NCBI GenBank assembly: GCA_028713325.1
Contig: JAQTON010000002.1
Location: forward strand, 124,001-188,000
Reading direction: 5' to 3'
DNA: 64,000 bases
From: Candidatus Altimarinota bacterium
GTDB taxonomy: Bacteria > Patescibacteriota > Gracilibacteria > BD1-5 > UBA2023
Under the pieces are notes generated by a model, which saw only the letters and a list, made by a program, of their open reading frames with translations, did no database searches and had not been told where the DNA came from. Position numbers and translations under genes: made by a program. Of this stretch, positions 3,644 to 54,770 are shown piece after piece (positions within the stretch are counted from its first letter, which is position 1; each line of letters starts with the position of its first letter).

Positions 3644-4492
3644 TTAATCAAGTTTAGTAGCAGTTATAGAAATACTCTCATCACATGCATTATCTACATA
3701 AGTGAAACCTGTAGTAGTAACACCTGATAATGCGTCTGCTCAACATCCACCATCTGATATTTTTGTCTGATATAAATTCGTAACTTTAGAATAACTTGTT
3801 GAATCACTTACAGCTAAAGTAGCTCTCCATGATGTAAACCATGTACCATTGGATGATCTTACTGTAACATCATAAACTCCGTTACTCATATAACCAGCAT
3901 TTTTGGCGTTTTGAATAATATTTACCCAGGTATATGCACCAGCTTGAGTATAATTATAAGAAGCAATAATTTTTCAAAAATTATTTGAATGGATATTCCC
4001 ATTGACATTTATATTTCCATTCACATCAAGTTTTTGAGTTGGCTCCATTGTCCCAATGCCGACATTACCATCGTATTTTATCGTCATTGTTGGAATTCCT
4101 ACTGTCGGAAACCAATCTCCATTAGCCCAATAACCTAAATTAAGCTGTGTTTGGTTTATATTAGGGGTAATTCGATAATAATTTGGGGAGCCATCAACAC
4201 TCGAAGGTGCGAATCCATTACCGTGAATTTGTAGCTTTGCTCTTGGACTCACTGTTCCAATTCCTACATTCCCTCCAGAAGAGAATATATTTGCAGTTCT
4301 CGTATCCAATTCAAATATCCCATCTATGATTTTATTCCAAGATGCAGCAGTAAGTCCCGAACCACTTCCTACTTTATCTGCATTTGAGAGTCCACTCGAG
4401 AGCACTGCATACCCTACAGACAATACCATAAGAGTACCAAAGAACATGAGAGCGGAATACACTGATTTCTTCCAAAAAGAAAGAGTGTTCAT
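3644..4492 (-). CDS. Fiber-like surface protein 1 (GIGT-repeat family)
   Basis: A 282-residue protein joined across two UGA codons, ending in TAA. The N-terminus MNTLSFWKKSVYSALMFFG begins a single membrane or signal segment, followed by ADKVGSGSGLTAASWN. Two short repeats, GNVGIGTVSPRAKLQIHG and GNVGIGTMEPTQKLDVNG, are the turn-rich units seen in trimeric tail-fiber and adhesin proteins. The C-terminal part (TWVNIIQNAKNAGYMSNG and onward) is a globular head-like region with two cysteines. It is a paralogue of the genes at 17347-18198 and 19336-20385. An envelope-exposed adhesin is likely by inference. Confidence 0.7.
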
Positions 4493-4637
4493 AAAAAAGA
4501 AAAGTAAGAAATTAAACTAAAACCATTATCACATTTTTCCTGAGAAAATCAAGTCTCATTTAAAAATCCATGATCTTCAATTACCCCTTGATAAATAGGG
4601 TAAAAATGAATATCTTTAATCGTCTGATTTTGAAATT

Positions 4638-5945
4638 TTAGAACTTTACCGTAAAAGTACTTCCTTCTCCTTTTTCGCTCTTGACGGAGATGGCGTAACC
4701 GAGTTTTTCCACGACGGTTTTCACAAGAAAGAGCCCGAGTCCATGTCCGTTTTGGAGACTCCATGAAGAATTTACACGATAGAGTCGATCCCATATCTTC
4801 CCGATACTTTCCTTCGCGATTCCTATTCCGGTGTCTTGTACACAAAATTCCTTCGCTGTAAGTGTGATGCGGATTTCTCCTGCAGGAGTGTAATTAAAGG
4901 CGTTGCTTAAAAGATTGGAGAAAATAATCTGGAGCATCGAATGATTCGAGAGGAGTATGACATTTTTCTCTATGTTTTTTATGACGCGTAACTGTTTTTC
5001 GCTGAAAAGATGCTCTGTCTTGAGGATGATTTCCTCAATCAATTCGGAAACATTTACCTCGTTTTTTTGTATTTCTTCTTTCTCAAGACGGGTAATGGTA
5101 AGAAGAGTACTGATCATGGTATCGAGGAAATATATCTGACTTCGGATATTATCGAGACCGGTTTTATAATCCCCGCTCTTGATGGCACAGTCGATTTCCG
5201 AATGGATGATCATAAGAGGAGTTTTGAATTCATGTGCCGCATCGGTACTGAATTGCCTGAGTACTTCCGTCTGCGACTGTATCTTTTTGAAAGCATCAGA
5301 AAGGGTTTTTGCAACAGTAACGAATTCATCATCGACTGGACCGGAAATAGGGAAGTCCGGCAAAGGGGAATCTACTTTAAACGAGCGAATATATCGAATG
5401 ATTTTCAAGAGCGGACGGAGGGAATAACGGGTGAAAAAAAGAGAAAGGAGCATGATGATAACAAAAAAAACAGCTATCAACAAAGCCGATATTCGCAGAA
5501 GGATTTTTTGTTGAGAAATATGTTTTGCGATGTCGTCGTAGGGGAGTCCGACGATTCCGATTTTTTGAAGAGGAAATACAAACTGTATATAGGCACCCGA
5601 TCCGTTTTCATAAATTCAAAGAAAATCCGATTTCTCTTTCGTCCATTTCGGGGAAACAAATGTTTCGCCCTCGAGCGTTTCGACCATCCCTCCTTGTTCG
5701 ATGATTTTTTTGATGAATGTACTCATCATTTCTTCGTCCATAAATGTTCCGCTTCCATTTGCGGATTTTAAAATACTCTTTTCTATCTTTTCTATCTTCT
5801 CCAGTACTTCATTTTGTTCATCGATATACCAAGTGGAAAAATAATAGATATTGAGTACGGCGACAAATACGATTAAAAGCACACTCGTAAAAAGAGTGAA
5901 TATGAGAGCGGTTCTCGTTGAGGTTTTAAATCGGGAAAAGAGCAT
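4638..5945 (-). CDS. Membrane sensor histidine kinase
   Basis: A 435-residue two-component sensor. A first membrane segment (residues about 13-35) and a second (about 160-185) enclose an extracytosolic sensor region of about 120 residues. A HAMP-like linker follows (RYSLRPLLKIIRYIRSF). The H-box is DAAHEFKTPLMIIHSEID, the N-box SNLLSNAFNYTP, G1 DTGIGIA and G2 GHGLGLFLV. One UGA (YSDFLGIYENG context, near nt 5613) lies in the sensor. The ATG is 6 nt after the response-regulator stop, so the pair is an operon. The redox genes directly upstream on this strand suggest it senses an envelope or redox condition, which is inference. Confidence 0.93.
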
Positions 5946-5951
5946 AAGTTT

Positions 5952-6614
5952 TTATGTTTCTGATAAGGAAAAAACATATCCGTATCCTTTAATGGTTCGA
6001 ATAATGTCGGGAGAAAGTTTTTTTCGGAGATTGGAAATATATACATCGAGCTTATCGCTCTCGAACAGCGCCTCGCCTCCCCAGATACGATCGATGATAT
6101 CCGTTCTGGAAACGGCAACCCCTTCGTTGGTGATGAGGTATTCTAAGATCAGGAATTCTTTCAGGGGAATATGTACAATCTCGCCGTCTTTTCGAACAGT
6201 TCTCTTTTGAAGATCGATGATGATATTTTTGTAGACGATTTCCTTAAACGCTTTCTTTTTTGTTCGCCTGAGAACCGCGAACATACGGGTTTCCAACTCC
6301 TTAAGGTCGAACGGTTTTACGAGATAATCGTCCGCTCCGCTCTCGAGCCCGATAATCGTATCCGTTGTTTCGTCTCGGGCGGTAATGATAATAATGGGTG
6401 TATCTTTTTTTTCTCGTATCTTTTTGCAAACCTCGAAACCGTCCAAAACCGGCAACATCCCGTCTAAGAGGACGATGTCGTACTCTTCTCAGAGTGCCAT
6501 ATCGAGTCCTGTTTGTCCATCGAAGGCAATATCGATAGTCCAAGCATCCAGCTCCATATATCGCTTGATGTTTTTGGATATTTCTCGATTATCTTCAATG
6601 AGAAGAACTTTCAT
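5952..6614 (-). CDS. OmpR/PhoB-family response regulator
   Basis: A 220-residue DNA-binding regulator. The receiver domain begins MKVLLIEDN and has the phospho-acceptor Asp in DIVLLDGMLP, the Thr of IIIITARD and the Lys of DDYLVKPFD. The C-terminal winged helix ends NLRKKLSPDIIRTIKGYGYVF. One UGA is read as Gly (DMALGEEYD). The start overlaps the stop of the upstream Ig-like gene by one base (TAATG), which suggests translational coupling. OmpR-type regulators bind direct repeats with an 11-bp period; two such sites lie upstream of apbE and the FMN_bind gene. Confidence 0.94.
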
Positions 6615-6970
6615 TATTTTCTTTCGATGATGATATAGGTGCTTGTTATATTTCCAGCTTCATCTTTCGCACTCACGACAATGGGATTGAACCCAATATC
6701 GAGAGTATAAACCCCCACTCATTCTAATCGGATTTTATCCGAAGCAGTGCGATCATCGGTTGCTTGCACCCGAATGTCAACTGTTTCCGAAGAAACCACA
6801 TCCCCATCTTTATAGTCCAAAAACACAATTACAGGAGGAATTACATCCGGTTTTGGCTTGGTGTATTTTCGTACGGAAGTATATTTATTTTCCTCGGAAA
6901 TACTGATAAGTGCTGAAAAAGAAAGCACTGTCACGATTATAACCGAAAGAAGTATACTCAATTTTTTCAT
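6614..6970 (-). CDS. Secreted Ig-like domain protein
   Basis: A 118-residue protein with an N-terminal signal or anchor (MKKLSILLSVIIVTVLSFSA) followed by one bacterial Ig-like beta domain. Domain marks are DVIPPVIVFLDYKDGDVVSS, VDIRVQATDD and VVSAKDEAGNITSTYIIIE. One UGA is read as Gly. It lies 3 nt after the membrane fusion gene and overlaps the response-regulator start, so it is the link between the redox genes and the two-component genes. It could be an extracytosolic accessory or sensor partner, but nothing in the sequence decides this. Confidence 0.8.
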
Positions 6971-6973
6971 ATG

Positions 6974-8353
6974 CTAGAATATTTCATGATAAATTTTTTC
7001 AAAGCCCTGTACTTTCAGGTCAGAAACACTTTTTTCTATCATTGCAGGATTTCCGCACATATAGAATTCGCTATCCTTTGGAAAGCTAAAAGTTGTGAGA
7101 TCGATACGTCCATGTCGAAACCCGGGGATTTCCTCGCGGGAGAGAAATATATGAGATTCGAGCTTCGGAATTTCTTTCAGAAGTTCCGTATAAAAAAGAC
7201 TTGCAGAATCTTGGATTCAGAAAAGAAGAATCTTGTCTTTATCCGGAAGTTGACGCATCATATTTATGAGAGGAGCAAGCCCTGTTCCAGTTGCGATAAA
7301 CACCTTTGGATTGGGAGTGTCCTGTAGGACAAACGAACCGTAGACATTTTCTATCGCAAGAATATCTCCCGCTCTGATATTTTTTAAAACATTCCCCCCC
7401 CTTCCGGACGAGAGCTTAATGCAGAAAGTGAGTTTTCTTTCACTAGATTCTACAACCGAGTAAGAACGGTAGAATACCCCATCGCGATCCTTCAAGGCAA
7501 TTCGTGCATACTGTCCAGGAATAACCGTAAACAATTCTTTTGTTTCAAGAATAAGTTCGAGCGTTGTAGGATTTAAAAGAGTGGCGGTTATGACGGTCGC
7601 AGGGGTATTTTCTTTCTCATACTCCTCCTCGTAGGGAACAAAATCACCTTTACCGACTCCACAAACCGGACATACCCAGTCGTCAGGAATATCCTCGAAA
7701 CGGGTTCATGGAGGAATCCCTCCGTCAGGATCACCGTATTTTTCATCATATATCCATCCACAAGGGACGCAACGATATCGGGTTGTGTTACCGGAGAATT
7801 TTCCTGTTGAAATATCTTTTTTCGAAAGATAGGCAGCAGTTCGGAGAAGTATGACCGATGATAGGATCATCATATAAAAAGCATTGAATCGTCAAGCAAA
7901 TGCTATATGTAATGTGACAAGGAGAAAAAGAGGATAGGCCAAAATCTGAATCTTTTTCCATGAACCCTTCAATATTCGCACGGAAAAATTATTAGAGGTA
8001 ATTCCTAATGCCGCCATAATCACAAAAGCGATTACTCCGGAAATAATATCGAGCTCCTTGAAATGTGCCAAAACAAAAAAAGTCTTTTGGTACATATATT
8101 CCATATAAAAATACATACCCATATGAATCGTGGCAAGAAGGAAGGCGAGAACGCCGAAAGTTCTTCTATAAGGGGCAATACTGTCTTTGTTCGTGAGAGT
8201 TATGATTGGCGTGACAACGAGAGCGAGAGCAAAATAGACAAAAGAAATCATCCCGAAGTCTCGGAATAAGAGATTCACTTCTCCAGATTTCATAAGATAA
8301 AATCCTGCAAAAAGAAAGATTCCCGGTATAAGAACAAGAATGTATCGGAGCAT
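6974..8353 (-). CDS. Three-module electron-transfer protein: heme membrane domain, rubredoxin, FNR-type reductase
   Basis: One 459-residue frame after reading UGA as Gly. Residues 1-175: five or six membrane helices of the ferric-reductase-like/MsrQ type, with candidate heme histidines in [11 protein letters not shown] and [11 protein letters not shown]. Residues about 195-245: a complete rubredoxin with both Cys pairs ([11 protein letters not shown] and [15 protein letters not shown]). Residues about 255-459: a ferredoxin-NADP reductase fold with the FAD motif FYRSYSV, NAD motif [11 protein letters not shown] and CGNP near the end. The predicted path is NAD(P)H, FAD, Fe of rubredoxin, then heme across the membrane. 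The UGA at the helix end (HIAFA-G-RFNAFY) and the rubredoxin PP-G-TRFED join the modules. I know of no standard family with this exact fusion. Confidence 0.88.
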
Positions 8354-8518
8354 AATGGATTATTTAGACTGGTAGGATACTCAAAGAAAAATTCCGCAGA
8401 AGAATATGAATGATTGAATCATTCGGAAAAATACGGCATCACCACGGTAAGGTGATATATATTTTCCCTGACATATATCCTACGGAATTTCTCGAAAAAA
8501 GCAATTTTATATTCTTTC

Positions 8519-10141
8519 TTAACTTGCTGCTGTTGTAGTATCTACTTTTGGAGCTGGAGCTGGAGCAACAACCGGAGCGACTACCTTTGGAGCTACTTGA
8601 GTAGCAGTCTTTGCCGCTGCTGCCGCCGCCGCTTGAGCTTGAGCCTTGGCTTTTGCTGCCGCCTGAGCTTGAGCTGCCGCCGCCGCTTGAGCCTTGGCTT
8701 TTGCTGCCGCAGCAGCCATTGCTGCAGTAGTAGCAGCCGAAGGAGATGATGGAGTTGGTTTTGTTGCCGCCGCGGTTGCAGGAGTTACTGGTTTTGTCGG
8801 AGTTTTCGTCTTCATAGTCTGTATCACCGGAGCTGTTGATGGTTGTACTGTCGCAGATCTTACCGGAGTAACGGTCACAGATCTTGTCGGAGCGATAAGA
8901 GGATTATTTTGACGAAGATAGGTTGTAAGTGCATTCTTTGTAGCAAATTCCCGACCAGAAATACTTCCATCAGAACGCCTAAAGATATAGGTGCTCGAAG
9001 TTTCATTACGAATGATTATATATTTTTTTCCATTTGGAGCAGTATAGGTTCCCTCTTCCTGAAGATTTTGATTATTCTTGTTGATAAAATCAACAACACC
9101 TTGATAGCTTGTGAACTTTTGTGAAGAAATACTTCCATCTGAACGCTTGAAGATATATACTCCTGTGGAAAGCGAAGAAATTACATATCTCTTTCCATTT
9201 GGAGCAGTATGACTGTTTCATACCGGAGATACTGTCGGTATATTCTTTTTGGTGTTCGGTATCACTACTGTTGTCGGAGTATTAATCGTGGGAGTAGTGT
9301 CTGCAGGTTGATTCGTCGTTATGGCCGGAGCAGGAGAAATCCTTGCTTGAGAAAGAGCGTTATTTACGGCATCTTGTACGGCCTGGGAAGTCCCGGTTGC
9401 TCCAGTAACGGTGTCAATATTCGTATTGTTCGTACTTACGATGTTTTGAAGAATCGCATCACCCTGAGTACGGGTGAATTTTCCGTTTCCGGAAGCCGTG
9501 AAACTAATGAAGGATGCCTGGGATATTCTTCCGGATGCAATAGTGAGCGATATGGAGTAATTGACACTTCCGCCAGCAAAAGAATATCTTCCAACTCCCG
9601 TATACGTACCATCCTTAAACTGAGAACCTGTAGGGATAGGGGTAACAACCGGAATAATAGGAGTTACTACAGGAGTAACAACCGGAGTTGTAGGAATTAC
9701 AGGGGTAACAACCGGAGTGGGAGTGACAGTTGTACAAGATTGTCGTGGAACTTTTTCTGCCGTACCGGAAGCATTTGTTACAGTATCGTATACTGTCGTA
9801 CAGGTCTGAATAGGAGTGGAATTAGACGGAGACGTGGAGGGGGTTGTAGTAGTAGGAGTCGTCGTCGTTGTTGTAGGAGCGGTATATTGATGATCGTTGT
9901 CATCATCCCTCTCATCATCCCTTTCATTATCATCGTTGTCATCATCCCTCTCATCATCATTATCGTCGTCCCTCTCATCATCTGCATACGTTGTTGGTAC
10001 TGTCAATTGACGTACGTTCCAAAATCCTGTAGAGATATTGTCATTATTTACTGACACAATACCAAAGAAAGACGCTCCGCAGAGAAGAAAGATGCTTCCT
10101 ATGGTAATAATTTGCAGTGATTTTTTCATAGATTTTTTCAT
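8519..10141 (-). CDS. Exported FMN-binding (flavinylated) protein with low-complexity arms
   Basis: A 540-residue protein. In order: signal segment (SLQIITIGSIFLLCGASFFG), an acidic Asp/Arg stretch with ERDDDNDD-type repeats, Thr/Pro linkers, then an FMN_bind domain (FKDGTYTGVGRYSFAGGSVN to VNNALSQA). The domain contains VTGATGTS, the usual ApbE flavinylation site with Thr as FMN acceptor. After a UGA-Gly come two copies of a 45-60 residue repeat (APNGKRYVI.., APNGKKYII.., each ending YIF-R-SDGSIS). The tail is Pro/Thr and then Ala/Lys/Gln-rich, possibly wall-spanning. apbE lies directly upstream; the membrane fusion lies downstream. Confidence 0.85.
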
Positions 10142-10181
10142 ATTGAATAAAATTAATAGCTAAAGTGGTTTACTGGAAGGG

Positions 10182-10213
10182 AGTGTAGTTGTTAACCTTA
10201 AATAAAACTTAAA
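10182..10213 (-). promoter_or_regulatory. Promoter and OmpR-type box upstream of the FMN_bind gene
   Basis: On the minus strand the box TTTAAGTTTTATTTAAGG (nt 10213-10196) holds two TTTAAG units 11 bp apart, the spacing bound by OmpR/PhoB-type regulators. Eight bases later is a -10 like TACACT (10187-10182). The arrangement matches that upstream of apbE almost exactly. Confidence 0.6.
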
Positions 10214-10221
10214 TATCGTGA

Positions 10222-11133
10222 TTAATTATCGATTTCAACGAATTCGAGGTCGTATTTCTCCTGAAGTCCTTTTGTATAGAGAAGTTGTCCAGAAGATGTG
10301 AATATGAGTCCTTCCATATCGTTCTGTTCTATGAGACGGAGTCATTCTGAAACCGGTGCATTGAAGACACTTTTCGTAAATCCGTCACAGTTGGCACATT
10401 CCTTTGAGATGAGCGTTACGCTAATTATGGCATTTTCATTTCAGAGAGTGGTCGGATTAATGAGGTGATGATATTTCTTCTCTTCGATGCTCCATTTTCG
10501 TTTGTAACTTCCGGATGTTGCGATGGCTGCATCCCGGAGTATGAGTGAAGCGATGATTTCTTCGGTGAAAGGGTTCTCTACACCGATGACCCAACCGGCT
10601 TGCGTATTTTCGTTTGTTCCGCTCGCATAGATATCACCTCCCGCATTGACGAAGAAATCGTCATACCCGAATAATCGGAGAAGGGAAGCAGCTTTATCTA
10701 CCGCCCAACCTTTCGCTATTCCGCCGAAATCGAGGGATTGCCCCTGTTGGAGAGTAATAGTATTTCCGTCTAGCTGTATCGCTTCGAAATCCGTATTGAT
10801 AGCTCATTCCGATTGTTCGAAATTTCACTCTTCAAATGAATGACTATATCCGAGTTTCGCGACGGATACGAGTGGATTGAAAAGCCCATTTGTTCGCTTA
10901 TACATCCGCTTTGAAGCCTCCATGAGTTCTATAAAACGATTTGAGACACTCGCTTTTTTGTGTGTATTGAGCAGGCTCAAACTCGATTCCGGGAGAAATC
11001 GCGAGAATTCTTGTTCGATGGAGGAAAAATAATCGAATACACAGGCGATTCGGTCGGGGGTTTTGATATCTTCAGAGATGACGGTTATCTCTATGGAAGT
11101 TCCGAGGAGTTTACGGGTGTCAGAATAACGCAT
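10222..11133 (-). CDS. apbE: FAD:protein FMN transferase
   Basis: A 303-residue ApbE enzyme that attaches FMN to a Thr of exported FMN_bind domains. Family motifs are all present: LGTSIEITVI near the start, LDFGGIAKGWAVDKAA, FVNAGGDIYASG, AIATSGSYKRKW and HHLINPTTL. Four UGA codons are read as Gly (for example PTTL-G-NENA). No clear lipobox or signal is visible. The target gene is immediately downstream on the same strand, 80 bp away, under its own promoter with the same direct-repeat box. Confidence 0.94.
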
Positions 11134-11164
11134 AAGAGGAAAATTAGGAATATTGATTGAGGGA

Positions 11165-11197
11165 AGTATAGGAAAGTTACCTTAAATAAACCTTAAA
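11165..11197 (-). promoter_or_regulatory. Promoter and OmpR-type box upstream of apbE
   Basis: On the minus strand the box TTTAAGGTTTATTTAAGG (nt 11197-11180) has two TTTAAGG units at an 11-bp period, followed after nine bases by the -10 TATACT (11170-11165). There is no good -35 hexamer; the box occupies that place, as is usual for activator-dependent promoters. Confidence 0.62.
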
Positions 11198-11224
11198 ATA
11201 TACCCATTATTTCGGGCATAAAAA

Positions 11225-11266
11225 ATACCAGGAAACGGTGTAAAGGAGGAAAACCGTCTCACTGGC
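11225..11266 (-). terminator. Intrinsic terminator after rsmA, possibly ending a very short transcript
   Basis: On the minus strand CCAGTGAGACGGT and ACCGTTTCCTGG pair around a loop and are followed by TATTTTTT. A promoter-like pair (TTGGAA, 16 bp, TACAAT at about 11300-11273) lies just before it. The hairpin may therefore end a short RNA rather than only rsmA. Confidence 0.5.
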
Positions 11267-11309
11267 AAAGTTATTGTAGCATATTTATCCTTATTTCCAA
11301 ATTTTTCTC

Positions 11310-12284
11310 TTACGTGATTTTCTCTATGAGTTCTTTCCATTTCCCGATCCCAAGTTCCTCGGCACGGGCAGTTTCCAAGAGTTCCAGTCATTCGAATGAT
11401 TCATGAAGGACTTCTTTCGAAATATGGAGAGTATTTGCCAGATTGGAGAGGAGTTTCTTTCTCGGGGAAGTGAATCCCGCACTCGTAATTTTTAGAAACT
11501 GTTTCGCTCTCAAAGTGTCGTATTCTTTTTTTCTTTTAAAAGAGAGAACACTCGAATCTATCTTCGGTGACGGGATAAAGTTCTCTTTTGGAACAAGACA
11601 TACTTCCTCGATCGTTTCACAGGAGAATTCGAGAGCAAGCGAAAGATAGGAATTGTTATATCATTTCTTTCTGCAAATTTTATCGCCCACTTCTTTCTGC
11701 ATAAGTATCACCATTTCCTCTGGCTTATTTTCGAGTTCATGAAGAAATCGAAAAAGGATGGGGGAGGTTATGTAGTAGGGGATATTCGCAATAACCGAAT
11801 AGGGAGAAATCTCTGAAAAACTCGTTCTTTGAATTCAAAATTCCGCTTCTCATTCCCCGTACTTATTCTGTACGATTCATTTCGATAACCCCTCTCCGGG
11901 GGAGCTATGGCTTCATTTTTCATTCAAATTACTTCGCTTTTGAGAGATTTCTGAGCTTTCTCATGGTGTGTATTTTAGTACATCCCCCTCGATAATGGTG
12001 AAAATAGTTTCCTCTGGAATGATAATATCCCCCTCTCTGATTCTCGATTGAAGGATGTACACCATCTTCTTATCCAACTCGACAAGAGTCAGAGATCTCG
12101 GTTTTCTTGCGAGAATTTTCTCGGTCAATGCCCCGTATCCCGGTCCAATCTCGAGAATATCTTTTCAAGTTATCTCGACACTATCCGCGATAGTCTCCAG
12201 TATATCGTCATTGACGAGAAAGTTCTGTCCGAGGGATTTTTGTGCCCGGATGCCGTAATGTCGGAGAATTTCTTTGTGATCCAT
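11310..12284 (-). CDS. rsmA: 16S rRNA dimethyladenosine transferase with in-frame palindromic-element insert
   Basis: RsmA (KsgA) dimethylates two adenines near the 3' end of 16S rRNA. The frame is 324 residues with UGA as Gly; 265-285 is usual. Motifs are SLGQNFLVND, the SAM loop ILEIGPGYGALT, VELDKKMV, IIEGDVLKY, the catalytic IANIPYYITSPIL and the C-terminal VPKENFIPSPKIDSSVLSF. Between DVLKYTP and NIPYYITSP there are about 48 extra residues (SQKRSNLNEKG and onward) encoded by the element at 11806-11951. The site is a loop between the SAM-binding part and the catalytic NIPY motif. Confidence 0.93.
11806..11951 (-). repeat. Palindromic element, copy 3 (in frame inside rsmA)
   Basis: A 146-bp copy with perfectly complementary arms GAAATCTCT and AGAGATTTC. 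On the coding strand it begins QKRSNLNEKG in the same frame as the copies in sufS and uvrD. It carries an extra internal cassette with AGCTCCCCCGGAGAGGGG, absent from the shortest copies. Confidence 0.88.
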
Positions 12285-12299
12285 TTGAATATTGTTATT

Positions 12300-13016
12300 T
12301 TACTGTACTACCTTTGTTTTTGACGGCCACTTATCCTTGATAACACCGAGTTGTCCGATATAAATGGTCCATTTGTTGAGGAATTTTTCGTATTGATCTT
12401 TCAGTTTACGCATATACGTGTGTTTGTCATTTTTGAAAGATGTGACGACCGCAGACTCTCCGAGTAGCCAGGCGGATTCTTTATATGCTTGGAGTTTTTT
12501 ATCCACAAGCCTGGAACACCCCTCTTGTCAGAATATAAAATTATTTGCATCGTTGTCAGTGGTAACTCCATCGCTCATCTTGCTGGATTCTCCTTTTTCT
12601 TTAAAATAGAGGATTGTTTCGTTCATAACGAGCGTATTGCAAATCTCTTCATACTTTGCCGGATAGACGGATTTTTTATTGGAACGATCAAAAAGATCTC
12701 TTATATTGGAGGAAAGTTGCCCAATATCCTTGTTGGTTTCTTTATGAATCTTTTGCAAATCTTTTTTTACCTCATTATCGAGTTTCTTGAACTCTATGCT
12801 CATAACGACCTGAAAGGCAATCTGCTGAGGACTGAGAGTTCCAACGGGACAGACATAGTCCTCTATGGTTTTTGCTCTACCTTCCTTGTTCGCCTTGATG
12901 CAGACATCAATCTTTCCGGTGTACTTTGATCTCGCCGATTCAGCAGCAAAAAGCGGTGAAAAAACTCCACTTGCGATAAACGATAAGATAGTTATATAAG
13001 AGATAACACTCCTCAT
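12300..13016 (-). CDS. Hypothetical secreted helical protein
   Basis: I do not recognise this 238-residue protein. It has a clear signal peptide (MRSVISYITILSFIASGVFS) ending near PLFAAES. The mature part is charged and largely helical, with four cysteines (DVCIKA, DYVCPVG, EEICNT, QEGCSRL). One UGA is read as Gly (NNFIF-G-QEGCS). It lies 15 nt upstream of rsmA and 4 nt after the next gene, so the run of minus genes from hsp20 to rsmA looks like one operon. It is probably extracytosolic. Confidence 0.7.
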
Positions 13017-17346: not shown

Positions 17347-18198
17347 CTAACTGTACGTTATTGTTATATCAGCATCGGTAAAATTGTGATTTAAGCTCCC
17401 GATGATTTCAAAAATACAAACGGGATGCGTACCACCTCCATTATAGTCAAACTGGATGACTTCATTGGATGGCGAAGTAACGGTAAATCCAGCACCTTCG
17501 GTTGCGACATGGGAGAAATTCGCCGTCCCATTCGTATACCCGCCCCCAGTCTGCGAAGCCACAGGTCATGTACTTGCAGTTTGTATTCGGTAGAGCCATG
17601 AACCGGCACCTCCCCGTAAATAAACCGTTACCTTTAGATGGGTAAATGCTCCACTTGCACCCTGCACCTTAATAATTCTTTGAGCACTTCCACCAACCGA
17701 ATTTCTGTTTGTGATCGAACCATTTACGTCAAGTTTCGCTCCTGGATTTGTCGTCCCAATACCGACGTTACCATCTCCTCTAATTACAAATAACTCCGTA
17801 TTATTATCCCTCGCCCGTGCTCTGAAGTTATAATCAGTACTATCTCCTCCTGCTACCGTTAGGAGTCCATAGGATGTACCTACGGCTGCAGTATTTACAA
17901 TTCCGACCGTATAAACATTTGCACTTCCTGCTATATCGAGTGGTTTAGTTGGACTCACTGTTCCTATTCCTACATTCCCTCCGGAAGAGAACACATTCGC
18001 AGTCCGTCCATCGAGTTCAAATATTGCATCTATGATATGATTCCATGAACTTGCAGTAAGTCCCGAACCACTTCCCACTTTATCCGCATTCGAAAGTCCA
18101 CTCGATAATACCGCATATCCCACGGATAATACTACAACCGTACCAAAGAACACCAACCCAGAATACATTGATTTCTTCCAGAAAGAAAGGGTTTTCAT
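17347..18198 (-). CDS. Fiber-like surface protein 2 (GIGT-repeat family)
   Basis: A 283-residue paralogue of the proteins at 3644-4492 and 19336-20385. The start MKTLSFWKKSMYSGLVFFG aligns with both, so the longer upstream frame is not used. Then follow a membrane/signal helix, ADKVGSGSGLTASSWN, repeats GGNVGIGTVSPTKPLDIAG and GNVGIGTTNPGAKLDVNGS, and a C-terminal domain with one UGA-Gly (RIQTAST-G-PVASQ). The head is beta-rich (FTHLKVTVYLRGGAGSWLYR). An adhesin or fiber role on the surface is inferred. Confidence 0.72.
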
Positions 18199-18289
18199 GG
18201 GAAAAAAGATAAGAAAATAAGAAATAACTTGAAAAGTGTATCGTTTTTTTTTTTTTTTGCAAATCAAGTTTCACTTAAAAAAAACAATA

Positions 18290-19335: not shown

Positions 19336-20385
19336 TTATGGATTTTCATCGGTGAATACTTGAGGTCCCATGATGGTTATAAAACAATTCATTCATCCCC
19401 CATAATTTCCTGCTGTCTTTACGAGTCGGAGAGTCCCATTTGATGGTCTGGATACTACCCATCCACCCACTGTCGGAGTACTGATATTAAGCTGATCCCA
19501 TTGTGAAAGCCCCATGTAACTATCGCCCGTAATGGTTGTCTCCAGTAATGCTACATATTCACTCGTCCAATGGGAACAATTTGCCCATATTTTTAGAGGG
19601 ATAGAAGCAGTCCAAACAAAATCATAAGATAAAGATGCATTACCCATAAGATTCGGACTTCTCGACCATATACCTACACCATTGAGAATGGTATTTCCAC
19701 CTCTTACATCAAGTTTTGCCACTGGATTTGTTGTCCCAATACCGACATTTCCACCATTTGGCTGAAAGGATATAGGGTATGTGAGAGAAAGGTTTGCTAT
19801 ATTTGTACCCTGAAACCAAAGTGCAAAAGGGGAGGATTGTAATTTTCCCATGTCAAGTATATTATTTGCAAGCCCCTGTATTCGAAATATACCATTTTGG
19901 GTTGTACCGGAAGTAGCTGGTGTGCCATCTGTACCTGAAATAGTGAGTTTCGATCCTGGACTCGCCGTCCCGATCCCCACATTTCCTCCGCTTGCAAATG
20001 TCACACGATTAGCACCATTCCAGAAACGAAGTTCTTCGGTTGTTTTGTCATGATATATTCCCCATGGAGTCTTGTCTTCAGATCCCATCTGGAGTTCTGC
20101 ATTTCCAGAGATGGAACCTACTTTCACTTTTCCTCCCGAATATCCGATTCCTCCCGTTACACTATTCCAGAGATTTCCTCATCCGGAAACAAGAGAATCG
20201 ACTCGAGTATTGAGATCATCCATATTTAATATCATCGCATTCCAGATACCTATAGTAAGAGGTTGTCCTCCGGTTGCTGGAGTCATCGTTGAATATGCAC
20301 CATACCCGACTGAAAGTATGATGAGTGTTCCGAAGAATACGAGAGCGGAATAGAGAGACTTTTTCCAGAAAGAAAGGATTTTCAT
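19336..20385 (-). CDS. Fiber-like surface protein 3 (GIGT-repeat family)
   Basis: A 349-residue paralogue starting MKILSFWKKSLYSALVFFG, chosen because it aligns with the two sister genes. A membrane/signal helix is followed by a divergent linker and repeats SGGNVGIGTASPGSKLTISG and GNVGIGTTNPVAKLDVRGGN. The N-terminal and C-terminal parts are joined across UGA (VSG-G-NLWNS, NYGG-G-MNC). The C-terminal region (IWSRSPNLMGNASLSYDFVW) is globular. It is preceded by leader copy B and rpsA. Confidence 0.72.
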
Positions 20386-20465
20386 GAGAAAAATAGTGAG
20401 AAAATAAGAAATAACTTGAAAAGTGTATCGTTTTTTTTTGCAAATCAAGTTTCGCTGAAAAACAA

Positions 20466-20497
20466 TAAAAAAGCGACTATCTTTTGATAATCGCTTG
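20466..20497 (-). terminator. Terminator or attenuator hairpin in leader copy B
   Basis: On the minus strand AAGCGATTATC-AAAA-GATAGTCGCTT is followed by TTTT. The stop codon of the small hydrophobic frame B lies inside its 3' arm. Confidence 0.7.
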
Positions 20498-20665
20498 TGT
20501 TTTGTTTCAAACAAAGGTGGAGCGATTATCCGTAGTCGCCAAACTATTTATACGTCCGTTCCCTATTTTACAAGAGTATGGAAGTGGATAACCGCTCCAT
20601 AGTGTCTTGTAAAATAAGAATAAAAAAAGAGAAACTGCTACATATAAATAATTTGGCACGCCCAT
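20477..20665 (-). CDS. Possible small hydrophobic peptide B in the leader
   Basis: A 62-residue frame (one UGA as Gly) starting MGVPNYLYVAVSLFLFLFYK, with a hydrophobic stretch at residues 6-19 and a polar tail that overlaps the conserved stems. It shares only the first seven residues and the hydrophobic character with peptide A. Confidence 0.35.
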
Positions 20666-23317: not shown

Positions 23318-25663
23318 ATGCTCAATCCATCCCAACAACTTGCCGTCGACCATCTGACGGGACCACTTTTGATCCTCGCCGGAGCCGGAGCAGGGAAGAC
23401 CCATACTCTGACGGAACGCATAGCGACACTTATAGAGGATCGCGGAGTGGCTCCCGAGAGCATCCTCGCGGTAACTTTTACGAATAAAGCAGCGAAAGAG
23501 ATGCGAGAGAGACTCGGAAAGAAACTCGGTCGGGATACGACGAATATGAGTCCGTATCGATCCATTGGTTTTCCTCTCGTGGGGACATTCCACTCGGTGG
23601 GGATATTTTTCCTCCGGTCTTTTATAGAGCATCTCGGATATGATCCGAAGTTTGTGATCTATGATGAGGATGATAAGCTCCGTCTCATAAAATCGCTCAT
23701 CAGAGCTCGTGACCTCGATGAAAAAGAAATCGCTCCGAGAGCGGTTATCGGAGCCATCAGTCAGGCGAAGAACCAGGGACTTTCGGCAGCGAAGTACGAC
23801 ACGATCGTGAACAGCTATTTCGGGTCGATGGTGCGGGATATCTATCTCGATTATGAGAAATCGCTTCGCGAGAATAATGCATTCGATTTCGACGATATCC
23901 TCCTTCGAACCCACGATCTTTTGCAGATTCCGGAGGTCTTGGAGAGAATCCAGAACAAGTACGAACACATATTCGTCGATGAATATCAGGATACCAACGA
24001 CATCCAGTACAAGACGATCAAGCTCCTTGCGAGCAAGCACCGGAACCTCTCGGTCGTGGGCGATGATTGGCAGGGAATCTACGGTTGGCGAGGAGCCAAC
24101 ATCAAGAATATCCTCTCGTTCCAAAAGGATTTTCCCGGAGCCGTGGTCGTGAAACTCGAACAGAACTACCGTTCCACCAAGACGATTATCTCGGGAGCCA
24201 ATGCGGTTATCAAGTGCAACAAAGAGGCACTCGACAAGACTCTCTGGACGGACAATGAACAGGGAAATAAGATATTGCTCATAGAAGCATTGAGCGAGAA
24301 ACAGGAGGCGGAACTCATCGTGAAAGAGATTAAAGATTTTAAGGGAGAAGGAATAAGAACTTCTCAAAAACGAAGTAATTTGAGTGAAAAATGAGAACCG
24401 GAGTGAACTGTACGAGATGGTACAGTGAACGAGGAAGCGGAATTTTGAATGCAAAGTACGAGTTTTTCAGAAGTTCCCGATTACAGTAAGTGGGCGATTC
24501 TGTACCGAACGAACAGCCAATCACGACTCATAGAAGAGGCACTTATCCGGGCGGGAATCCAGTACAAAATATACGGAGGACAACGCTTTTATGAACGCAA
24601 GGAAGTAAAGGATATTCTCGCTTATATGCGACTCATCTTCAATCCGCTCGATACCATGAGTCTTCGGCGTATTATCAACGTGCCGAGTCGGAAGATCGGG
24701 GAAAAGAGCGTGGAAACTTTCCTCCACTATGTGCACAATTTCCATGCCCCATTTTCAGAAGTGATTCAATGAATCGACGAGATGGACGAGCTCACTCCGC
24801 AGGCTCGTCGCGGTATCACAGGATTTGGTGCTCTCTACGCTGAATTGACGCAGTATCTCGGGGAACATTCCATAAAAGAAACGATGGAACACATCATAAA
24901 ACAAACACAATACATCGACTATCTCCGCCATGAATACGGGGAAGGGGAGAGTGAGTCCAAGGAAGAGAACTTAAAAGAGTTTGCCAACATGGCGTCGCGG
25001 TATGACGGAATGAATTCGGGAGAAGCTCTCATAATGTTTCTCGAAGACATCGCTCTTATTACCGACTCCGATCGGGACGAACCGGGACAGAATAATTTCG
25101 TTTCCATGATGACTATTCATTCTTCCAAAGGATTGGAATTTGAAAATATCATCATCGCTGGAGCGGAAGAGGGGTTATTTCCGCATTCCCGTACTCTTAT
25201 GGAACCGCGTGAAATCGAAGAAGAAAGACGGCTTATGTATGTTGCCATGACTCGTGCGAAACGCACCCTCACCATCACTCGTGCCCGCGAACGGTATACT
25301 TTCGGAAACTATTCCGCCAATCCCGCATCTCGGTTTCTAAAGGAAATCCCCGAGGAATTCATAGAACGAAAAGAAATCGAGGTGAAGAACTTTTTCGGAG
25401 GATTTGGAAGCAAGGCGTATCCGACCTTTGATATCCCATCGCACGGAACCCCCGAAAAACTCGTTGAAAAAAAGCGGTCGGTGACCTCCAATGATCCAAG
25501 CTCTTTTACGCTTGGAGAACGAATTCGTCATGTGGAATTCGGAATCGGAACGATTGTCAGCATCGCCGGTCCCATAGCGGAAATCGCTTTCTCCGGAGGA
25601 AAGGGGATCGCGAAGATGCACCTCGGAATCGCCCCCATCGAAAAAACGGCGGAAAGCACGTAA
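23318..25663 (+). CDS. uvrD: UvrD/PcrA-type DNA helicase with in-frame palindromic-element insert
   Basis: A 781-residue superfamily 1 helicase for DNA repair and replication. Motifs: Ia region MLNPSQQLAVDH, Walker A GAGAGKTHTLTERI, TFTNKAAKEMRERL, DEYQDTND (II), VGDDWQGIYGWRGA (III), LEQNYRST (IV), MTIHSSKGLEF (V) and EERRLMYVAMTRAK (VI). UGA is read as Gly in several places. Between EIKDFKGEG and KWAILYRTNSQSRLIEEAL about 40 residues (SQKRSNLSEKGEPEG and onward) come from the element at 24357-24476. This is a loop before a core strand of domain 2. The C-terminus has a small SH3-like tail (GERIRHVEFGIGTIVSI). Confidence 0.95.
24357..24476 (+). repeat. Palindromic element, copy 4 (in frame inside uvrD)
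   Basis: A 120-bp copy with complementary arms GAACTTCT and AGAAGTTC. Read in frame as SQKRSNLSEKGEPEGTVRDG and onward to TSFSEV, with three UGA codons as Gly. Same orientation as the gene and same frame as copies 2, 3 and 8. Confidence 0.88.
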
Positions 25664-33993: not shown

Positions 33994-34113
33994 GGATTTT
34001 CGCAAAAACGAAGTAATTCTAGTGCAAATCGAGAACCGGAGTGAACCGTACGACTGTACGGAGAGTGAGGAAGCGGAGATTTAATCTCGAAGAACGAGCT
34101 TTTCCGGGAATCC
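33994..34113 (+). repeat. Palindromic element, copy 5 (post-stop, zinc-ribbon gene)
   Basis: A 120-bp copy with arms GGATTTTCG and CGGGAATCC (imperfect). It ends 1 nt from the stop codon of the minus-strand gene 34115-35344, and its QKRSN-coding orientation is the plus strand, opposite to that gene. Confidence 0.85.
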
Positions 34114-43526: not shown

Positions 43527-43649
43527 GGAAATCTCTGCAAAATGCGAACTTTGCACTCAAATTTTACGTTCCTCGTTCACCGTACATGAGTACGTCTCAC
43601 TACGGTACGCAGTTTTCATACAAATTTCATCATTTTTCAGGAGATTTCC
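43527..43649 (-). repeat. Palindromic element, copy 6 (post-stop, ABC-F gene), divergent
   Basis: A 123-bp diverged copy with arms GGAAATCTCTG and CAGGAGATTTCC. The core has drifted (GATGAAATTTG instead of GAAGTAATTTG on the minus strand), but the arms still pair. It starts 1 nt after the stop and is opposite to the gene. Confidence 0.78.
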
Positions 43650-45536: not shown

Positions 45537-45702
45537 GACTTCCGGAAAAACTCGTTCTTCGAGATTAAATCTCCGCTTCCTCAACCCACGAGGGGAGCTG
45601 AATAGCTTCTCCGTACAGTCGTACGGTTCATTCCGGTCGACCCACGAGGGGAGCTAAATAGCTTCGATTTGCACTCGAATTACTTCGCTTTTGCGAAAGT
45701 CC
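45536..45702 (-). repeat. Palindromic element, copy 7 (post-stop), with two internal cassettes
   Basis: A 167-bp copy with arms GGACTTCCG and CGAAAGTCC that overlaps the preceding TAG stop by one base. It contains two insertions of a cassette with AGCTCCCCTCGTGGGT at different places; one is also in copy 8 at the same place. Orientation is opposite to the gene. Confidence 0.85.
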
Positions 45703-53711: not shown

Positions 53712-54770
53712 TTACTTACTAAACACGCTATATTTCAGCATATCGAAGAGTCTGGAACGATTTTCGGTGAAATCGATATTTTGTTTGCTTTTGCCAACCG
53801 TACTGGAAGTCGCTATGGAACGCAGAGGAAGAGCGAATCCGTTGGGACTGGAGATGCGATATTCCGTAGGATTGGCGGAAGTGTTTGAGAGGATGAGATA
53901 ATTATTCTCATAGGAGTTAAGGAATGCGGTGATATTTTTCATTCCCGCGGTCATTATGTCGGTATCCATGCGTTTTTCAAATCCTTGTTGGATATTGGCA
54001 CTCGGAGTATTTCCAAAACTTCTCATGAGCGAGCCGGTTCCAGCTATTCCATAGGTCTTTCCGCTGGAATCATTTCCGATGATATTCCAGTTCACATCTC
54101 CGTCCTGAGTGACAACAAAAGTATTGGTTTTTACTATATCGGAAGTATTTTTATTTGGATTTTTGGCAGAACTCTGGATTCGTACTCCCATATCATAGAA
54201 GAGCGGTATAATCTCAAAACTTCCTTGTGCAATAGTTCCCGCGTAACTCGTGTCCGATGCTCGAAGCACGCTGGAAATAGTGGTTTTCTTTGCTGTGGAA
54301 GCATCAGTATCTAGGAGATGATATTCGAGATCGGAATCGGTAATGCTATCGGAGAAACCCTCGCGATGATTGGAACTTTTGAGAAGAGTATATTCAAGGA
54401 CTCATTCAGCACTCATATACGCGGATACACCATCTGACAAAAAATGATTCATCCCATTCTCGACGACAAAAAGATTGAGCATTCCTGCCGAGAGTATCGT
54501 CAAAAATGCGGTCATTAGAATTGCGATGATAGTAGAAAAACCGCGAGAACCTCTGAAAAACTCGTCTTTCGAGTTTAAATCTCCGTTTCCTCATTCGGAG
54601 CCTGTCCTGAACTTGATTCAGGATCCCGATACCATAACGGTTCATTCCGGTTGACCCACGAGGGGAGCTAAATAGCTTCGATTTGCACTCGAATTACTTC
54701 GTTTTTGAGAGGTTCTTAAGTTATTGGAAACAGAAGATTTATTTTGTAAAAAATTCTTTAAAGGAAACAT
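53712..54770 (-). CDS. PilX-like minor pilus protein with in-frame palindromic-element insert
   Basis: A 352-residue protein, last gene of the pilin operon. The start MFPLKNFLQNKSSVSNNL (ATG 54770) leads directly into the element (SQKRSNSSANRSYLAPLVGQ and onward to EFF). The pilin-like helix then follows: RGSRGFSTIIAILMTAFLTI. The globular part (QGSFEIIPLFYDMGVRIQSS, DGDVNWNIIGNDSSGKTYGI) is typical of PilX/PulK-like initiator proteins. The insert sits between the N-terminal peptide and the helix, so it would alter the prepilin leader length to about 80 residues. Confidence 0.78.
54546..54716 (-). repeat. Palindromic element, copy 8 (in frame inside the PilX-like gene), with nested inserts
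   Basis: A 171-bp copy with perfect arms AGAACCTCT and AGAGGTTCT. It carries the AGCTCCCCTCGTGGGT cassette (net 24 bp, in frame) and a second nested palindrome TCCTGAACTTGATTCAGGA. The gene frame stays open through all of it with UGA as Gly. Confidence 0.88.

Follow-up and report, generated by a model that had tools for sequence, protein, structure and literature searches.

What acts on the two flavin promoters of this Candidatus Gracilibacteria genome is the question raised by a direct repeat (hereafter, the box) that stands ahead of both apbE and the neighboring gene for an FMN_bind protein. The window, i.e. the whole stretch of 64,000 nucleotides analyzed here, is part of contig 5 (124001-188000) of a genome of 1,050,770 bases (1.05 Mb; G000), and its ORFs are open only if TGA is read as glycine (code 25). 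To our knowledge, transcriptional control in bacteria of the candidate phyla radiation is nearly unknown.

The genes concerned all lie on the minus strand. They comprise apbE (10222-11133), which encodes a flavin (FMN) transferase of 303 residues under code 25 (Pfam ApbE, 193 bits) and whose start codon is backed by the promoter position and by orthologs; the gene of an exported FMN_bind protein of 540 residues (8519-10141; Pfam FMN_bind, 32.2 bits for a cut-off of 22), in which an N-terminal signal-like segment and the flavinylation-type motif DTVTGAT can both be read from the sequence; and the gene of a 459-residue membrane oxidoreductase (6974-8353; Pfam Ferric_reduct, Rubredoxin, and NAD_binding_1) that fuses a ferric-reductase/MsrQ-like membrane part, a rubredoxin, and an NAD-binding reductase in a single protein. 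The MsrQ model scores this fusion below its cut-off; many genomes of the order encode full-length homologs, and the close relative G004, of the same genus, has 74% identity in it. Flavinylation systems associate ApbE with an exported FMN_bind protein and a membrane protein for electron input, and the joint presence of ApbE and of an FMN_bind protein with a flavinylation motif places the block among them. An export signal is not obvious in ApbE, yet its likely substrate is exported. Further along, a 118-residue protein (6614-6970) conserved in the locus, with homologs in L063-L066 and L072 and for which Pfam gives no match, precedes an OmpR/PhoB-family response regulator (5952-6614, 220 residues), the proposed binder of the boxes. 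The latter combines a Response_reg domain (88.6 bits, cut-off 30.2) with a Trans_reg_C domain (66.4 bits, cut-off 26.2) in Pfam, and its phosphoacceptor reads as Asp51 in DIVLLD51GMLP. Its partner, a sensor histidine kinase of 435 residues (4638-5945; Pfam HisKA and HATPase_c) with the H-box AHEFKTP, was aligned with the kinases of box-linked loci. The 165-bp gap upstream of the oxidoreductase gene contains a weak terminator-like hairpin, so that read-through to the two-component genes is uncertain.

Elsewhere in the window, the proteins encoded at 3644-4492, 17566-18267, and 19393-20514 have a common start, LSFWKKS.YSAL, and GNVGIGT repeats, the first two also sharing SGLTA.SWN, and look like a family of secreted fiber- or adhesin-like proteins. 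A repeat of up to ~165 bp recurs at 11781-11960, 98-234, 2069-2170, and 24362-24471, with further copies near 34042-34104, 43528-43585, 45545-45696, and 54548-54714. It lies in frame within protein genes in at least three cases (ksgA, a cysteine-desulfurase-like gene, and the gene of a UvrD-type helicase), where it inserts peptides such as QKRSNLNEKG...EFGIQRTSFSE, and we take it to resemble the protein-coding palindromic elements of Rickettsia.

Both predicted operators are exact copies of TTTAAG-N5-TTTAAG on the minus strand. Upstream of apbE, the box (11181-11197) is made of half-sites at 11197-11192 and 11186-11181, and is followed after 10 nt, a spacing conserved in relatives, by the -10 element TATACT (11165-11170), from which 31 nt lead to the ATG at 11133. 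Upstream of the FMN_bind gene, the box (10197-10213) has its half-sites at 10213-10208 and 10202-10197, with TACACT (10182-10187), a -10 element read from the sequence, 9 nt further on and the ATG at 10141 after another 40 nt. The original prediction of direct repeats with an 11-bp period ahead of both -10 elements is therefore confirmed, and its distance of 8-9 bp is right if counted from TTTAAGG, which corresponds to 9-10 nt from TTTAAG. The leaders at 11133-11165 and 10141-10182 are short (about 25-35 nt, predicted), and a Shine-Dalgarno sequence is not obvious at either promoter. Known RNA elements ahead of the genes, riboswitches included, were also considered and discarded, Rfam giving no match within 4000-13000.

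Only two exact copies of the box exist in the 1,050,770 bases of the genome, at these two promoters, and the genome-wide scan called for by the original prediction thus shows that it is not common at random. With a weight matrix trained solely on sites of the sister family, and with reversed sequence as background, the apbE and FMN_bind boxes score 29.8 and 29.0, respectively, while the rest of the 64-kb window stays below 8 throughout and the reversed window reaches at most 14.2. Boxes with two mismatches are not enriched in the genome: they number 122, whereas the reversed pattern, with GAATTT halves that genes probably contain often, numbers 472. If three mismatches are allowed, the full promoter pattern is likewise at control level (44 vs 74). 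Since these looser versions are at or below control in this genome, near-exact sites alone count, and a broad regulon sought within it by degenerate search is unsupported. One more candidate site, with a single mismatch and a score of 21.2, lies at C5:1141, where no gene clearly follows it. Another promoter-like string, TTTAATAATTGGNNNTATNNT, is repeated in the genome, either exactly or with a single mismatch; one copy precedes recA (C3:127829), and others are at C1:129545, C1:180811, C1:400934, and C3:150989.

Conservation in relatives, which the original prediction had put forward as a check, is complete within the genus: among the genomes carrying an ortholog of the regulator, the box is found in 10/10 readable apbE and FMN_bind promoters (both genes in G000, G004, G005, and G006, apbE in G003, and FMN_bind in G001). 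In the promoter alignments, TTAAG...TTAAG and the -10 element are nearly the only invariant blocks and the remainder drifts, the second half-site reading CTTAAG upstream of apbE in G004 and G006. The box is also present at a paralog of the membrane part in G001 and G006 and, in distant members of the family, ahead of the FMN_bind gene (G016 and G019) or of the oxidoreductase gene (G019). Conversely, in three genomes of the family that possess flavin genes (G013, G017, and G011), both a close ortholog of the regulator and a strong upstream box are missing; this test is independent of the window because the matrix was trained only on sister-family sites. A decayed box, ATTAATTTTCTATTAGG, is nevertheless seen in G013 at the expected place, 35 nt ahead of the FMN_bind start.

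Beyond the genus, the pattern TTAAG-N5-TTTAAG-N9/10-TANNNT was counted in 77 genomes of the genus, family, and order, most of which, like the other genomes compared, look like fragmentary metagenome-assembled genomes. It occurs 92 times, as opposed to 13 times each with a spacer of N4 or N6 and 29 times in the reversed orientation (hand count), while in 70 other genomes of the class the box with its -10 element is near background (12 against 9). Among the 88 sites read, the box is separated from the -10 element by 9 nt in 68 and by 10 nt in 20; the distance from the -10 element to the start codon is tight, with a median of about 32-33 nt, and a search for a -35 element at 16-18 nt matched at most two of the six TTGACA positions in 59/67 sites. 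This spacing, the tight start distance, and the weak TTGACA match give the box promoters the marks of activator-type promoters, with the operator apparently in the place of the -35 element. At L076:11699-11737 (G129 C3), four tandem TTTAAG-type half-sites, 11 bp apart, are found ahead of a -10 element.

The next element of the answer is the distribution of the regulator. A box lies within 5 kb of 24/37 orthologs of the window regulator and of 4/112 other OmpR-type regulators (Fisher p=1.5e-14), orthologs being defined by a similarity of at least 165 bits, a cut that was set after the scores had been seen and with which the tree agrees. Indeed, in the maximum-likelihood tree, all 22 box-linked regulators belong to a single clade of 29 rows (support 98/99); seven of these 29 are without an exact box within 5 kb, several of them being on short contigs and some having one-mismatch boxes. 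The box is present with no clade regulator listed in 15 genomes, which are in part chance matches (about 13 expected). Within the clade, the recognition helix is near-invariant, KLDVYIS[NTSG][LI]R, and differs from those of the three further OmpR-type DNA-binding (Trans_reg_C) domains of the host genome and of the other regulators sampled. Furthermore, in several genomes the kinase-regulator operon is itself headed by a box, as is the gene directly after the regulator. The 11-bp repeat is thus strictly kept and linked to one regulator clade, binding being a prediction from sequence. That the OmpR/PhoB-type regulator of the same block controls the boxes, as originally proposed, is supported by this co-occurrence, by the orthologous promoters, and by the loci devoid of both the regulator and a strong box. 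At the level of sequence comparison, the sites are shown to be real, conserved promoter operators tied to a regulator clade and to redox genes.

The nature of these genes emerges most clearly from the sister family, where box targets are largely extracytoplasmic redox proteins. They include about 15 lipoproteins with one or several thioredoxin folds, about six DsbD-type membrane proteins, MsrA or MsrAB, three thioredoxin-reductase-like flavoproteins, an FMN reductase, a rhodanese, a DUF4395 protein, and two cupredoxin-type proteins. By hand count, about 40 of the 67 well-placed sites precede redox genes, flavin genes included, and five more stand ahead of kinase-regulator operons; targets without obvious redox role include a HisRS-like gene, a TPP enzyme, and a VTC-domain protein. 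A survey of thioredoxin domains in 15 sampled genomes of the order and in the host found one strong, short, and probably cytosolic protein in each genome but two or three, together with some 20 others, mostly exported, 14 of which have, by our own reading, an exact box upstream. A part in a redox two-component regulon is the best reading of the boxes. This wider regulon and the identity of the box with that of streptococcal CiaR go beyond the original prediction. No description of such a regulon in this lineage was found in the literature searched; the regulon appears new for the lineage, its type of two-component system (OmpR/PhoB) being already known. The sensor loop predicted for the kinases of the sister family (L178-L218) contains a Cys (IC-S-x-GV) that is missing from those of the genus, including the one encoded at 4638-5945, a difference that is only suggestive. 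As a tentative generalization, possible without being favored, one two-component system may govern the extracytoplasmic redox economy of the order and have been rewired between families, with thioredoxin lipoproteins, DsbD, and Msr under Cys-loop kinases in the sister family and covalent-flavin electron transfer under Cys-less kinases in this one.

As to the mechanism, regulators of the OmpR/PhoB family bind a repeat head to tail as a phosphorylated dimer and contact RNA polymerase. The boxes are very probably operators of the local regulator, encoded 4-5 kb downstream, from which it would recruit RNA polymerase to promoters lacking a -35 element and raise the flavin genes upon a redox cue. 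On sensing such a cue outside the cytoplasm, the neighboring membrane kinase would phosphorylate the regulator, and two DNA-binding domains would then occupy the half-sites, with their 11-bp period, in a head-to-tail arrangement from ~-38 to -22, i.e. in the usual place of the -35 element, bringing RNA polymerase to a promoter with a -10 element only. The expression of apbE (flavin attachment) and of the FMN_bind gene (flavin carrier) would thereby increase, as would, by read-through, that of the oxidoreductase and of the two-component genes themselves. As a response, the cell may gain flavinylated electron carrier in this family and thiol reductant in the sister family. We infer that the regulator binds the boxes directly, that it activates, that transcription reads through the operon, and what the signal is; it is the gene content that points to redox state outside the membrane as the cue, and to this response.

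Other readings of the same sites have to be weighed against this one. The regulator could act on these operators as a repressor that covers the -35 region until a redox signal releases it, as the overlap of the box with that region and the repression of one target, manLMN, by the streptococcal regulator CiaR (PMC8317062) would allow. We consider this unlikely, since most sites have no -35 element and look activator-dependent for that reason, the 9-10 nt between box and -10 element is the spacing of CiaR-activated promoters, for which a search distance of ten was used (PMC3091779), and CiaR targets are mostly activated. That a different OmpR-type regulator encoded in the genome binds the boxes, with the two-component system of the block just a neighbor, has a smaller probability still: three further Trans_reg_C domains are at hand, but it is specifically near regulators of the KLDVYIS clade that boxes lie (24/37 vs 4/112), the kinase-regulator operon is box-headed in several genomes, and the recognition helices of the remaining regulators are quite different.

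Readings that dispense with a dedicated regulator fare worse. Generic A/T-rich promoter elements, either UP elements or an unusual -35, would fit the A/T-rich and promoter-proximal nature of the box, and a different promoter-like string, TTTAATAATTGGNNNTATNNT, is also repeated in this genome; with two exact sites in the genome, a strict N5 (92 vs 13 and 13), and a box tied to redox genes and to one regulator clade and absent where the regulator is absent, this explanation is very improbable. Chance, or a recent duplication of a promoter segment, to which the location of both boxes within one 1-kb stretch could be ascribed, is hardly tenable, because the two promoters differ outside the box and -10 element and each box is independently kept in other species of the genus, a conservation that refutes it; for chance alone, the rarity in the genome, the matrix scores, and the N5 vs N4/N6 counts lead to its rejection.

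Sequence by itself thus allows the regulator, operator, promoter geometry, and targets of a putative regulon to be identified throughout an order in which TGA encodes glycine, and exported thioredoxin-fold and flavin proteins gain testable functions. The regulon also suggests that these cells, reduced and probably dependent on a host, sense the redox state beyond their membrane.

How this system relates to known ones can be appreciated from the flavin genes and from the regulator. ApbE/FMN_bind extracytosolic flavinylation systems have been surveyed (PMC8238504), and the same logic is found here, with apbE beside the genes of an FMN_bind protein and a membrane oxidoreductase. The present system differs from them by its electron input, a fusion of ferric-reductase/MsrQ-like, rubredoxin, and NAD-binding parts, by an ApbE without export signal, and by a putative dedicated two-component control.

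On the regulator side, the closest operator is that of streptococcal CiaR, an experimentally defined site, NTTAAG-N5-TTTAAG, found over many promoters at ~10 nt from the -10 element and in which the G of each half-site is invariant and essential (PMC3091779). The CiaR operator form TTTAAG-N5-TTTAAG is identical to the window boxes, with the same spacing to the -10 element, and its pattern and distance are found at both window sites and at the 88 sites read; this identity opens the way to in vitro and heterologous tests. The published recognition helix of CiaR, VVEVYVSKVRKKL, resembles that of the window regulator, KLDVYISNLRKKL, and autoregulation in the CiaR regulon has its counterpart in the box-headed kinase-regulator operons. 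In Streptococcus gordonii, CiaRH increases when the thiol oxidoreductase SdbA is lost (PMC8317062). However, CiaR targets htrA and csRNAs in another phylum, as opposed to flavin and thiol redox genes here, and CiaR is not among the best 25 NCBIfam models for the window regulator; the likeness being one of box and helix, a box type common to CiaR and Gracilibacteria is likely shared or convergent rather than a sign of the same regulon. BAS0540 (BAS0540-BAS0541) of Bacillus anthracis, also OmpR-type, binds TTTAAG-N5-TTTAAG sites in EMSA, including one in its own promoter (PMC4938410), and provides a precedent for DNA binding only, in another phylum and with another predicted regulon. The PmrA/BasR box, HTTAAD-N5-HTTAAD with YTTAAK repeats (PMC10927774), has the same half-site class and period as the window boxes. 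Of the regulators with a full-length structure, PmrA (8jo2, 4s04) is one of the nearest, its recognition helix contacts bases via Asn196 (PMC4660055), and the window regulator also has an Asn at this place in a hand alignment; lipid A genes are absent among the box targets here. In NCBIfam, the window regulator scores 155.6 bits with the PmrA (BasR) model (cut-off 330), 166 bits with PhoB (cut-off 296), and 154.7 bits with HprR, the regulator of msrPQ (cut-off 353), and is not filed under any of the three because it falls below these curated cut-offs. We file the two-component system as an OmpR/PhoB system that would work like CiaR and PmrA while being a member of neither.
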